From Syntrophales bacterium (GTDB taxonomy: Bacteria; Desulfobacterota; Syntrophia; Syntrophales; UBA4778): a DNA stretch of 41,611 nucleotides. The position numbers and the translations under genes are program-made. This document shows positions 18,310 to 41,340 of the stretch, in pieces (positions within the stretch are counted from its first letter, which is position 1; each line of letters starts with the position of its first letter). The stretch is taken from positions 1 to 41,611 of the forward strand of contig JAQTPK010000024.1 of the NCBI GenBank assembly GCA_028712885.1, in the 5' to 3' direction. The notes beneath the pieces are model-generated. The model saw only the letters and a list, made by a program, of their open reading frames with translations. It did not search any database and had not been told where the DNA came from.

Positions 18310-18360
18310 AGATTGATTATACAATATTCGCCAGCGCGGCGTCAGGAGACTGTTATCCCA

Positions 18361-19380
18361 ATGAAGAAAAAAGATTACCTGAAGAAACCCGTCCGGCACA
18401 TCGATATTACTTCCATCGACACTTCACAGCTCGTCCGGGCAATGAAGGGGATGTCCTTCTCGGCCCGCGACCTGGCCAACGCGGCCGAAATTTACTGCCG
18501 CATGCTTGCCGACCGGCGAGCGGCGGTCATCCTGACCATCGCAGGAAGCACCAGCGCGGGCGGGTGCATGAAGATTTATTCCGACCTGGTCAGGTACAAC
18601 ATGGTCGACGCTGTCGTAGCCACCGGAGCGGCGATCGTGGATATGGATTTTTTCGAAGCCCTCGGATTCCGCCACTACCAGGGGTCCTCCGCAGCGGACG
18701 ACCGGGAATTGCGCCGTCTGTATATCGACCGGATCTACGACACGTATATCGATGAAGAAGAGCTCCAGGCCTGCGACCGGACGGTAAAGATAATTGCTGA
18801 CAGTCTTCCGCACCGGGCGTATTCTTCCCGGGAGTTCATCAGGGAAATGGGAAGATATCTCCGGAAAAAAGCAAATAAAAAGGACTCCCTCGTAGGGACA
18901 GCCTTCGAGAACGACGTCCCTATCTTCTGCCCGGCCTTCTCCGACTCGAGCGCCGGATTCGGCCTCGTCCTGCACCAGGTCGACAGTCCGGACAGCCATA
19001 TCACCATCGACAGCGTCAAGGATTTCCGGGAACTCACGATGGTCAAGATCAAGGCCAGAACAACGGGCCTCCTGATGATCGGCGGCGGCGTGCCCAAGAA
19101 TTTCGCCCAGGATACGGTCATCTGCGCCGAGCTTCTCGGCAGGACTGTACCCATGCACAAATACGCGGTCCAGATCACGGTAGCGGACGTGCGCGACGGC
19201 GCATGCTCGAGCTCGACCCTGAAAGAGGCGAGCTCATGGGGAAAGGTGGACGTATCGCACGAACAGATGGTTTTCGCGGAAGCGGCCATGGCCCTGCCCA
19301 TCCTGGCCAGTTACGCTTATCATTCCGGGGTCTGGAAGAACCGCCCCCGGCGCGCCTTTGCAAAACTGTTCGATAAGTGA
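18361..19380 (+). CDS. Deoxyhypusine synthase-family protein
   Basis: The 339-residue DHS homologue shows the NAD-binding family features (TIAGSTSAGGCMKIYSDLVRY; VATGAAIVDMDFFEALGFRHYQG; LLMIGGGVPKNF) and the reactive-lysine segment EASSWGKVDVSHEQ, where the Lys aligns with the lysine that forms the spermidine-derived intermediate in eukaryotic DHS. Bacteria lack eIF5A, so protein modification is unlikely. Bacterial homologues have been linked to polyamine conversion such as homospermidine formation. ATG at 18361 begins MKKKDYLKK. AGGAG lies rather far upstream. Confidence 0.85.
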   Translation: MKKKDYLKKPVRHIDITSIDTSQLVRAMKGMSFSARDLANAAEIYCRMLADRRAAVILTIAGSTSAGGCMKIYSDLVRYNMVDAVVATGAAIVDMDFFEALGFRHYQGSSAADDRELRRLYIDRIYDTYIDEEELQACDRTVKIIADSLPHRAYSSREFIREMGRYLRKKANKKDSLVGTAFENDVPIFCPAFSDSSAGFGLVLHQVDSPDSHITIDSVKDFRELTMVKIKARTTGLLMIGGGVPKNFAQDTVICAELLGRTVPMHKYAVQITVADVRDGACSSSTLKEASSWGKVDVSHEQMVFAEAAMALPILASYAYHSGVWKNRPRRAFAKLFDK

Positions 19381-22555: not shown

Positions 22556-22790
22556 TTTAAAACCGCCATGAATTGAATTTATCAGTAATGATCGGAACCG
22601 AAGAGCAGATTATGAGAGGATATCGGAAGAACTGAGCAAGAGCAACAAAGTCAGGCGAAGTGTACAATATGAAGATAGAAGAGTAAAGAGGGGAAAGACT
22701 TTGTTCTTCGGATGAGATAAATAAATCTCCGTTCCTGTTCCGCATCGGAATTTTGTTTTTTTCTCCATTATGTTCCTCTATCATGGGCGC
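22556..22790. other. Spacer without recognised gene
   Basis: AT-richer DNA between the divergent DUF4184 and ATC-hydrolase-like genes. No heptamer tract is seen. A small TTCCG/CGGAA hairpin followed by TTTTGTTTTTTT (22738-22758) resembles a weak terminator on the plus strand with no gene before it. It presumably holds promoters for both neighbours. Confidence 0.4.
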
Positions 22791-23273
22791 ATGAAAAAAT
22801 TCCTCAGAGCGGCCTTAGGTCACCTCTTCATGACTCCGTTCATGGGCGGCGTGCTCGTTCTCGCCGTGTTCATCGGCAGGCCGAAAGCGGTGAGTTTCAT
22901 CGGCGGGATTCTCACGGCGGCAGCGCACAGGTTCGTCGGACTCGCCATACCCCTAATCAACTCTCCGGAGGAATTCGACTTTTTCCGTAACAGGATAAAG
23001 AGGAACTTCTCCTGCTACGGCTTTCTTTATGATATGCGCATCACTGTAGATAATCAGGATGCCGTTCAATTCAATATCCTGAACTGTCCCTTCTGCTGCA
23101 CCCTGCGGAAATACGGCTTTTCCGACCTGAGCAGATATGCGTGCGCCGGAGACTGGGTAATTGCCAGGGAAAACAGGGACAAGTGGACCTTCTCCCGGGA
23201 GGGGAGCATCGGCACGGGAGGCGACTTCTGCAATCCGAAGTATTCGCGCAAAAAGAACAAGTTGAGAAGCTGA
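22791..23273 (+). CDS. ATC-hydrolase-like protein with N-terminal membrane segment
   Basis: The 160-residue protein has one N-terminal hydrophobic segment (LGHLFMTPFMGGVLVLAVFIG) and a C-terminal half resembling L-2-amino-thiazoline-4-carboxylic acid hydrolase family proteins (PF14196): FNILNCPFCCTLRKYGFSDL, YACAGDW and GSIGTGGDFCNPKY. Cysteines are plentiful (NCPFCC, DFC). Related domains occur in anaerobes with unproven substrates. ATG 22791 is used. ATG 22770 is in frame but neither has a clear ribosome site. A strong terminator follows at 23314. Confidence 0.68.
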   Translation: MKKFLRAALGHLFMTPFMGGVLVLAVFIGRPKAVSFIGGILTAAAHRFVGLAIPLINSPEEFDFFRNRIKRNFSCYGFLYDMRITVDNQDAVQFNILNCPFCCTLRKYGFSDLSRYACAGDWVIARENRDKWTFSREGSIGTGGDFCNPKYSRKKNKLRS

Positions 23274-23313
23274 GAATTCAGGCGGAAAATCCGCTGCAGT
23301 GATTCATTCCCGC

Positions 23314-23342
23314 AAAAAAACCGGCGTAAAGCCGGTTTTTTT
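23314..23342. terminator. Bidirectional intrinsic terminator
   Basis: Seven A, CCGGC, loop GTAAA, GCCGG and seven T form a symmetrical hairpin with A/T tails on both sides. It serves the convergent ATC-hydrolase-like and HesB-like genes. Confidence 0.9.
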
Positions 23343-23357
23343 GTTTGTCTCAAAAAT

Positions 23358-23654
23358 TCAACAGCAAGTCCCGCATGCGGGAAGGCTCGATTGAATGGTG
23401 AAACCCGACCGCCCCTCCGCTTCGACAAAATCGATGCGGATCGGTTTGGTTCTTTCGAGCAGTTCCTTTTCCACGGCGAACGTGATCCCCTGGTCCGTGA
23501 AGATCTGATCGTCTTCCTGTGACTCGTCCAGAGCCATGCCCAGTCTGGGCCCTCCTCAGCCGGGCTGCTCTATGATTCTCACCACGAGCGGCTCCTTGTG
23601 CTTCTCCAGGAATTCCTTGATTATACTGCCTGCTTTCTCCGTTACCTGTACCAT
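23358..23654 (-). CDS. HesB/IscA-like selenoprotein (in-frame UGA = Sec)
   Basis: A 98-residue HesB/IscA-like protein, complete only if the TGA at 23558-23556 is read as selenocysteine. The sequence before it (MVQVTEKAGSIIKEFLEKHK, then VVRIIEQPG) and after it (GGPRLGMALDESQEDD, ITFAVEKELLERTKPIRIDF) forms one continuous HesB domain. Sec33 takes the place of the first conserved cluster cysteine, and the end PACGTCC supplies the others. HesB-like selenoproteins are an established family in Deltaproteobacteria. ATG at 23654 has a perfect GAGGAGGGGG ribosome site. A hairpin follows the UGA. Likely role: iron-sulfur or redox function, unproven. Confidence 0.88.
23538..23550 (-). promoter_or_regulatory. 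Candidate bacterial SECIS stem after the UGA
   Basis: On the mRNA, GCCCA and TGGGC pair around GAC, beginning about six bases after the UGA codon. Bacterial SECIS hairpins lie within about 40 bases after the UGA, so the position fits. The full fold and SelB contacts cannot be judged by eye. Confidence 0.4.
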
Positions 23655-23697
23655 TCCCCCTCCTCACAGGCTTTTAAACGGCCTGTTGTTTTTCTTT

Positions 23698-23725
23698 AAT
23701 TTAAGCCGTCCCGTATAAAAATCAA
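23698..23725 (-). promoter_or_regulatory. Promoter of the HesB-like selenoprotein gene
   Basis: On the minus strand TTGATT (23725-23720), 16 bases, TAAATT (23703-23698). Transcription would start about 35 bases before the start codon. Confidence 0.4.
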
Positions 23726-23803
23726 GCCTGGGCATACTGTCAGGCTTCTGCTATCCATATCACACTTCCCTTATACTGTTGTTGGAAAATTTTTGTACTT
23801 TCA

Positions 23804-23832
23804 TTGACAAATATCTCTATTCCTCATAAATT
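23804..23832 (+). promoter_or_regulatory. Promoter placing the start site at the thioesterase ATG
   Basis: A consensus TTGACA (23804-23809), 17-base spacer and TAAATT (23827-23832). The expected transcription start falls at about 23839-23841, the position of the ATG, and no ribosome site precedes it. Confidence 0.5.
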
Positions 23833-23840
23833 CCCCACCC

Positions 23841-24359
23841 ATGTACCCCTACTTCCGTTTGATCAAAACCGTCCTCCGGTCCTCTTTCGGCGAAAAGATG
23901 GCCATCTCCGACGAGAGTGTCCTGGAGATGCGCGTCATGCCCGGGGACGTGGACTTCTATCCCGAATGCAATAATGGGCGGCATCTTACGCTCATGGACC
24001 TCGGAAGGATCGATCTGGCGATCCGGACGGGCCTCATGAAAACAGTCATGAAAAAAGGCTGGGGCTTGATGGTCGCGGGGGCGAGCGTCAGGTACCGCTA
24101 CCGGCTGCGACTTTTTGATAAATACAAATTGAGGACGCAATTCGCCGGGAGCGATGACAGATGGATGTACTTCCACCAGTGGACGGAGCGGGACGGAACC
24201 GTCTGCTCCTCGGCCCTGATCCGGGGCGCGCTCACGTCCCGCAGCGGCCTTGTGCCCGTGAAGGAAGTCTTCGCCGCAATCGGCATCCCGGCTTGGGATA
24301 AGGAATTGCCCGAATGGGTCAGGGCCTGGGCGGAAGCGGAACAGTTAAGGCCGGGTTAA
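23841..24359 (+). CDS. Hotdog-fold thioesterase (THEM6-like)
   Basis: The 172-residue hotdog protein has the pattern of THEM6/4HBT-like acyl thioesterases: VMPGDVDFYPECNNGRHLTLMDLGR (residues about 34-58, with the catalytic-type Asp), RTGLMKTVMKKGWGLMVAGASVRYRYRLRLFDKYKL and GLVPVKEVFAAIG. Such enzymes hydrolyse acyl-CoA or acyl-carrier thioesters; the substrate is unknown. ATG 23841 lacks a ribosome site, and the promoter suggests a leaderless mRNA. A later ATG at 23898 is possible but would cut the conserved N-terminal YFRLIKTV helix. The DUF2846 lipoprotein gene follows after three bases. Confidence 0.83.
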   Translation: MYPYFRLIKTVLRSSFGEKMAISDESVLEMRVMPGDVDFYPECNNGRHLTLMDLGRIDLAIRTGLMKTVMKKGWGLMVAGASVRYRYRLRLFDKYKLRTQFAGSDDRWMYFHQWTERDGTVCSSALIRGALTSRSGLVPVKEVFAAIGIPAWDKELPEWVRAWAEAEQLRPG

Positions 24360-39565: not shown

Positions 39566-40420
39566 TTATCCGTGTTTTCGAATATGCTCCCAATCACGAT
39601 ATTCCGGGCTGTCGGGGTCGGCAGCGAGCTTCTTCTTCTCGCTCATGTATTTCCCGGACGATTTTTTTGCGCCGTAAAGAATGCGGTCTTCCCCGATCGG
39701 ACACACTTTTATGCAGACCCCGCATGGATAGCGTCTCCTCTCCGTCAGATCTTCCGCCACTCCCAGGCAGGCCAGTTTGTCGTAATCGCCGGCAATCCGA
39801 TCCTTCCGCATGGAAAGCGCGCTACCCGGACAGCAGCGGACGCACAGGCCGCATTTGATGCACAGGTCCCCCTCCTGCATCGGATCCGGCGGGATTTTAG
39901 CCTCGGTCAGGACGGACACGAGCCGCACGCGCGGACCGAACTCCGGCGTAAGCAGGCAGTGGCTCAGGCCCACCGAACCCAGGCCCGCGTACCGGGCCGC
40001 CATCACGTGGCTGAAAGCCGCGATCGGCTTATCCCGCAACGCCTTCAAAGAACCGTATCCGTCGCGGCTGAAGAAAATGGAGGCATGTCCCCGGCGATTG
40101 AGACAGCGGGTAAGGCCGTACGCCAGCCTGTCCAGCGCCCTGTTGACGGTCCGGTAAAGCTCCATGTGCTGGACCGAGGGGGTGGTCTCCACGATCGGGA
40201 GCGGCATCTGCATTCCGATTACTATCACCGTTTCGACGGGAGGCCAGACGGCGCGGGGGCGGAACTCGGGGGGGACTTCGCCGAAATCGTCCCACCGGTC
40301 GGGGGAAGCGAAGCCGACAAGATCCGCTCCCTGATCCATGCAGAAGCTGACGATATCTTTTTTCAGATCCCCGCCCGGTTTCGGCCTTTTTCCGGTCCTG
40401 GTAAAGCTTTTGGCTCTCAT
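39566..40420 (-). CDS. QueG-related 4Fe-4S protein
   Basis: The 284-residue protein belongs to the epoxyqueuosine reductase / reductive dehalogenase-related group (COG1600-like). It has two [4Fe-4S] sets: CIKCGLCVRCCPGSAL (about 187-202) and the pair in ACLGVAEDL plus CGVCIKVCPIGED (about 231-260), and FGPRVRLVSVLTEAKI before them. Real QueG is longer and has a C-terminal HEAT region, so this is more likely a cobalamin-linked or redox paralogue of unknown role. ATG 40420 overlaps the thiL stop by four bases with GAGAGG upstream. Confidence 0.8.
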   Translation of the reverse strand: MRAKSFTRTGKRPKPGGDLKKDIVSFCMDQGADLVGFASPDRWDDFGEVPPEFRPRAVWPPVETVIVIGMQMPLPIVETTPSVQHMELYRTVNRALDRLAYGLTRCLNRRGHASIFFSRDGYGSLKALRDKPIAAFSHVMAARYAGLGSVGLSHCLLTPEFGPRVRLVSVLTEAKIPPDPMQEGDLCIKCGLCVRCCPGSALSMRKDRIAGDYDKLACLGVAEDLTERRRYPCGVCIKVCPIGEDRILYGAKKSSGKYMSEKKKLAADPDSPEYRDWEHIRKHG

Positions 40421-41340
40421 CTGTTTTTCGGCCTCTCAAAGTGATCGAATCCCGCCCCCTTCATCGGGATCGGGATTCCGTCCGGACCTTGCACTTCGCT
40501 CCTTTCCGCAGCCACGAAAACGCCTATATGGGAAATGGTCGTTTCCCGGAAGGGCCATTCCCGTTCGAGTGCGGCCGCCTTCTCCGCCGGCACGGAGAAC
40601 AGCAGCTCGTAATCTTCACCGTCGGTCAGTGCTTCCCGCAGCTCAGTTTCCCCCGTCCTCCGGGGGACGGCCTCGAAGTCGATCCTCAGCGCCGTTCCGG
40701 AGGAACGGCATATGCGCCAGGCATCCAGCAGGAGGCCGTCGCTGACGTCGATCATGGCGTCCGCAAAGCGCCGCTCCGCAATCCATGCACCCTCGGAGCA
40801 TCGGGGCCGAAAAGTAAGGTGATGGCCCGTCGCCAGAGAGCGCCCGAAAGCACCCGTGGCAAAAAGGAGATCGCCCGGCCTCGCGCCTCCTCTGGTCAGG
40901 ACAATCGATTCCCGCACCTCTCCGAGAATCGTCAGGCTGGACACGGATTCACTCAATGTCGAGCTGAGATCTCCGCCGATCATGGCCACCTTGTACTCCG
41001 CAGCCAATCCGAGAATTCCCTCGAAAAATCTCCGGAGCCACTCTTCGCCGCATTCCGGGGCAAAGCCCGCCGCCACCAGGCAGTAGCGGGCCGTACCTCC
41101 CATAGCCGCAATGTCGCTCAGGTTCCTCGCCAGGAGCTTTCTTCCGACGAGTTCCGGCGCCGGGCCCCCCGGTCCCGTCCCGTAATGGCGCCCGGCGACC
41201 ACCTGATCGACGGCCGCGAGAAGGAGCAGGTCCGGGCCGATGCGGAACCCGGCGCAGTCGTCGCCGGGAGGAACGGCCAACTGCGGAGGCATTCCCGGCA
41301 GCCGGGAAAAGAGTTTTTCCAGGAAATCGTCTTCCGTCAT
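40417..41340 (-). CDS. thiL: Thiamine-monophosphate kinase
   Basis: The 307-residue ThiL has the PurM-like kinase motifs: VPPGDDCAGF (about 24-33), KLLARNLSDIAAMGG, IGGDLSSTLSESVSSLTILGE, MIDVSDGLLLDAWRI and LTDGEDYELLFSV. It phosphorylates TMP to TPP, the cofactor needed by Dxs in this same window. ATG 41340 has GGAGAAG ten bases upstream. It is transcribed ahead of the QueG-like gene. Confidence 0.94.
   Translation of the reverse strand: MTEDDFLEKLFSRLPGMPPQLAVPPGDDCAGFRIGPDLLLLAAVDQVVAGRHYGTGPGGPAPELVGRKLLARNLSDIAAMGGTARYCLVAAGFAPECGEEWLRRFFEGILGLAAEYKVAMIGGDLSSTLSESVSSLTILGEVRESIVLTRGGARPGDLLFATGAFGRSLATGHHLTFRPRCSEGAWIAERRFADAMIDVSDGLLLDAWRICRSSGTALRIDFEAVPRRTGETELREALTDGEDYELLFSVPAEKAAALEREWPFRETTISHIGVFVAAERSEVQGPDGIPIPMKGAGFDHFERPKNR

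Follow-up and report, generated by a model that had tools for sequence, protein, structure and literature searches.

The window, by which we mean the whole 41,611-nucleotide stretch of DNA analysed here, carries on its minus strand a complete and apparently monocistronic gene for a selenoprotein of the HesB/IscA family, a reading in which we have very high confidence, and the in-frame TGA at 23558-23556 is almost certainly read as selenocysteine (Sec) in the Syntrophales host. The family has already been described, and the protein is a new member of it only. The features concerned are the following.

23358..23654, minus strand: coding sequence of the HesB/IscA-like selenoprotein, ATG at 23654, stop TGA at 23360-23358, 98 amino acids, translated with TGA as U
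23556..23558, minus strand: in-frame UGA assigned to Sec, residue 33, in the motif PG-U-GGP, at a TGA/Cys column among related loci
23520..23536, minus strand: predicted bSECIS hairpin UGGCUC-UGGAC-GAGUCA, apical loop 23530-23526, from comparative pairing and geometry
23659..23664, minus strand: ribosome binding site AGGAGG, read directly, 4 nt before the ATG
23313..23343, no strand assigned: bidirectional terminator-type hairpin, 13 pairs, 5-nt loop, A and T tracts

The minus-strand frame runs for 32 codons from the ATG to the internal TGA and continues for another 65 codons to the stop; with TGA translated as Sec, the product is MVQVTEKAGSIIKEFLEKHKEPLVVRIIEQPG-U-GGPRLGMALDESQEDDQIFTDQGITFAVEKELLERTKPIRIDFVEAEGRSGFTIQSSLPACGTCC. 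A preliminary description of this DNA had proposed that both sides of the TGA form a single HesB domain, and this was borne out: the protein matches NF038090 (IscA_HesB_Se) over residues 1-98 with 101.3 bits, against a curated cut-off of 85, both sides align to relatives, and a search of the organism's own genome with the same profile returned the locus at 94 bits with one TGA inside. TIGR00049 also matches the protein, under its cut-off, and the Pfam Fe-S_biosyn match lies slightly under threshold. U33 falls opposite the GCSG-motif Cys of IscA-type proteins, in agreement with the earlier placement of Sec at the first cluster cysteine of IscA. Among solved structures, the nearest in sequence is 1nwb (hypothetical protein AQ_1857, HesB-type), in which U33 falls opposite its Cys, the match being weaker than that to NF038090. 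An alignment to Escherichia coli IscA, whose first cluster-binding Cys is Cys35, served as a secondary check only. At the C-terminus, C94, C97 and C98 lie at the site of the relatives' Cys cluster, and the three A-type ligand positions are filled by U33, at the GCSG Cys, and by the C-terminal Cys residues.

The same stretch is spanned in another frame by an unrelated GTG-start ORF of 105 codons (23667-23350, minus strand), and it is therefore plausible that ordinary gene calling would miss the gene, as had been suggested. That this ORF, which is open across the whole HesB stretch, could itself be the real gene and the HesB frame incidental has a practically negligible probability and is refuted by conservation, since the ORF has no Pfam or NCBIfam match, whereas the HesB frame fits a curated family and is conserved as a protein in more than 100 genomes.

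The signals around the gene were largely as previously described. The AGGAGG site stands 4 nt upstream of the ATG, and AAGGAG-type sites precede the start in most relatives too. The terminator-type hairpin at 23343-23313, which folds with -18.9 kcal/mol (z -5.0 relative to shuffles), has a convergent gene, 22770-23273 (plus strand), on its far side from the selenoprotein gene; because this hairpin of 13 bp, with its A and T tracts, stands between convergent genes, it can fairly be read as a bidirectional terminator, as had been claimed. The promoter that had also been claimed found no such support, a sigma-70 consensus scan of 23200-23900 returning no minus-strand match. Just upstream of the ribosome site lies an inverted repeat, ACAGGC...GCCTGT (window 23666-23686), which was scored as a plus-strand terminator and could form a hairpin in the 5' UTR of the selenoprotein gene.

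The genome to which the window belongs (2.93 Mb, 99.2% complete) encodes the predicted Sec-decoding set in full: selA (590 bits), selB (371 bits), selD (380 bits) and selC, the last detected as a tRNA-Sec with anticodon TCA (77 bits). The selD gene (L010:1483-2529, plus strand) has an in-frame TGA of its own close to its start, at 1531-1533, in the context GGT-TGA-GCG, reads GAG-U-ACKLGPEDL there and is a second selenoprotein gene of this genome. Within the window, an AIR-synthase-fold protein (40417-41340, minus strand) has a distant likeness to SelD (40 bits, below the cut-off) and is not the SelD of the genome; its gene is adjoined by one for a 4Fe-4S protein (39566-40420). We also observed, at window positions 18313-19380 (plus strand), a member of the deoxyhypusine synthase family (PF01916, E 4.7e-92), in what is a bacterial genome.

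Among related genomes, 142 of 197 contain a HesB homologue, and most homologues among the matches listed have exactly one TGA. We extracted 51 loci, including two with identical gene sequences (L013 and L028) and one that ends at a contig edge (L014). When these were aligned, Cys homologues included, the UGA fell in the Cys column: TGA occupies the same column in 39 of the 51, Cys in 10 and Arg in one, and in the remaining locus (L058) the TGA sits one column off, beside a one-residue length difference. The frame past the UGA is open in all 51 loci, and identity on the two sides of the UGA is similar (59% and 59% with L013, 59% and 68% with L015). Beyond the UGA, third codon positions account for the largest share of the differences among the relatives (1786, compared with 1189 at first and 789 at second positions). 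selA is present in 91 of 92 near-complete genomes, 149 relatives having been searched. No selA was found in G027 (97% complete), the homologue of which (L039) has Cys (TGT) at the Sec site, and none was detected in G118 (74% complete), which has Cys there as well (L034). A search for phage relatives returned none. We had looked for missing Sec machinery in the genome and for decay of the frame beyond the UGA in relatives, and found the full set and intact frames instead.

Downstream of the UGA, the stem claimed in the preliminary description is present. The hairpin at 23536-23520 fits the bSECIS geometry, and its pairs are kept in relatives. The bSECIS model specifies a loop of 3-9 nt, a stem of 4-16 bp, a G among the first two nucleotides of the loop and a spacing of 16-37 nt from UGA to loop (PMC13188914); here the loop is 5 nt, the stem 6 bp, the G second and the spacing 25 nt. 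The energy limit of the model is -7.5 kcal/mol or lower, and the hairpin alone is weaker (-5.8 kcal/mol), a value equalled by 6% of synonymous recodings; folded together, the 42 nt from the UGA reach -14 kcal/mol, yet this is no better than shuffles (z -0.7). Since the single-sequence fold is not significant against shuffles and the lone hairpin is modest, the argument for a SECIS rests on comparison among relatives. Of the cells in the hairpin, 94.1% are paired across 37 distinct Sec genes, compared with 50.5% at most when the partners are slid by 1-3 nt. There are compensatory changes: one position shows the pair types GC, GU, AU and UG, and two others exchange CG and UA. The loop reads UGGAY in 37/37 Sec genes, and synonymous codons are frozen among the genes with the residue (Ala41 GCT 32/32, Leu42 CTG 37/37, Glu44 GAG 36/36), whereas the same codons reach fractions of 0.67, 0.67 and 0.75 in non-Sec homologues, in which pairing falls to 72.7%. 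The hairpin averages -6.64 kcal/mol in Sec genes and -2.8 in non-Sec genes; synonymous recodings average -0.87 (sd 0.37, the lowest of 300 sets being -1.93). Judged by this comparison of sequences, selection acts at the RNA level on the predicted hairpin, which lies 25 nt downstream of the UGA.

An earlier-starting hairpin after the UGA, GCCCA-GAC-UGGGC, was considered as the SECIS and rejected, as it begins too near the UGA for the bSECIS model, and an Rfam search of the region gave sub-threshold chance matches only and no SECIS family. Two Cys homologues (L034:1501-1797 and L037:1501-1791) still have a SECIS-like hairpin, an apparent remnant of a Sec-to-Cys change, as would be expected if that change were recent; a SECIS remnant has been reported for a HesB-like protein of Desulfitobacterium hafniense (PMC1794560).

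The TGA could alternatively mark a pseudogene or a sequencing error, in which the Cys codon (TGC or TGT) of a HesB gene was turned into TGA. TGA is one base away from both Cys codons, and Cys does occur at this site in 10 of the 51 loci. However, a TGA at the Sec position is accompanied by an intact frame in about 40 related loci, a conservation that refutes this explanation, and the third-position bias beyond the UGA, the freezing of synonymous sites in the SECIS of Sec genes and the presence of the Sec machinery all speak against it, so that we regard it as very improbable. With selenocysteine as the preferred reading, SelB on the hairpin at 23520-23536 would deliver Sec-tRNA(Sec) to the UGA; we infer this because readthrough joins one conserved domain, the Sec-decoding set is complete and the hairpin is selected as RNA.

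As for function, Sec33 would stand in for the first cluster-binding Cys of IscA, the C-terminal CGTCC would provide the other ligands, and the protein would bind iron or an Fe-S cluster and then pass it on, which would make it a putative A-type Fe-S carrier or scaffold. It is quite possible, although we lean the other way, that the protein shares only the IscA fold and that Sec serves in redox or metal(loid) binding. The UxGP motif differs from the C-S-G of IscA, and two publications describe the function as unclear (PMC13188914, PMC11097638). Some related genomes have 5 to 7 HesB copies; the single-contig genome G036 has five, one of which (L059:309-593; G036:C1:1415608-1415892) is a paralogue whose Sec/Cys site holds Arg (CGC) and whose C-terminal Cys cluster is reduced. 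On the other side, Cys homologues retain a GCSG-type motif and most relatives a C-terminal CG/C cluster, like A-type carriers, and searches of the organism's own genome turned up no further A-type protein. This last statement leans also on TIGR00049 and NF038090, each of which retrieved the selenoprotein locus only, because PF01521 gave no match in the genome and misses even the selenoprotein gene. The genome also has one NifU/IscU-type scaffold and one SufB/D-type protein. Given these searches, it is conceivable, if somewhat doubtful, that the organism has no A-type Fe-S carrier besides the selenoprotein and that its Fe-S delivery is selenium-dependent. In Methanococcus maripaludis, mutagenesis and 75Se labelling are reported to have established a HesB-like selenoprotein; a disruption mutant was unimpaired in nitrogen fixation, and the function is termed not clear (PMC11097638).

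Reading this locus as a HesB/IscA selenoprotein puts right an annotation likely to be missed by standard gene calling, and it provides a clean example of a SECIS seen through frozen synonymous codons. As no other A-type carrier was detected in the genome by these profiles, the function of HesB-like selenoproteins may be easier to probe in this group.

HesB-like selenoproteins are, as had been stated, an established family (PMC1794560; PMC13188914), with bacterial members listed since at least 2006, including those of Syntrophus and Syntrophobacter (PMC1794560). The family cited for them is TIGR01911 (HesB_rel_seleno), and the motif given is UxGP (PMC13188914). The present protein shares the domain and the UxGP motif with TIGR01911 but scores 36.4 bits, under the cut-off of 66.35, and we therefore place it in the NF038090 branch instead. 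IscA, SufA and ErpA have the same domain, with Sec33 opposite their first cluster Cys, and C-terminal Cys residues; unlike them, the protein has Sec in place of that Cys and scores far below all cut-offs of their equivalog profiles. The closest likeness is to NF038090, with a full-length match over the cut-off, Sec in UxGP and a C-terminal Cys cluster; compared with most relatives, the C-terminus is shorter here (CGTCC, where relatives have CGxxCxC), and nothing essential differs.
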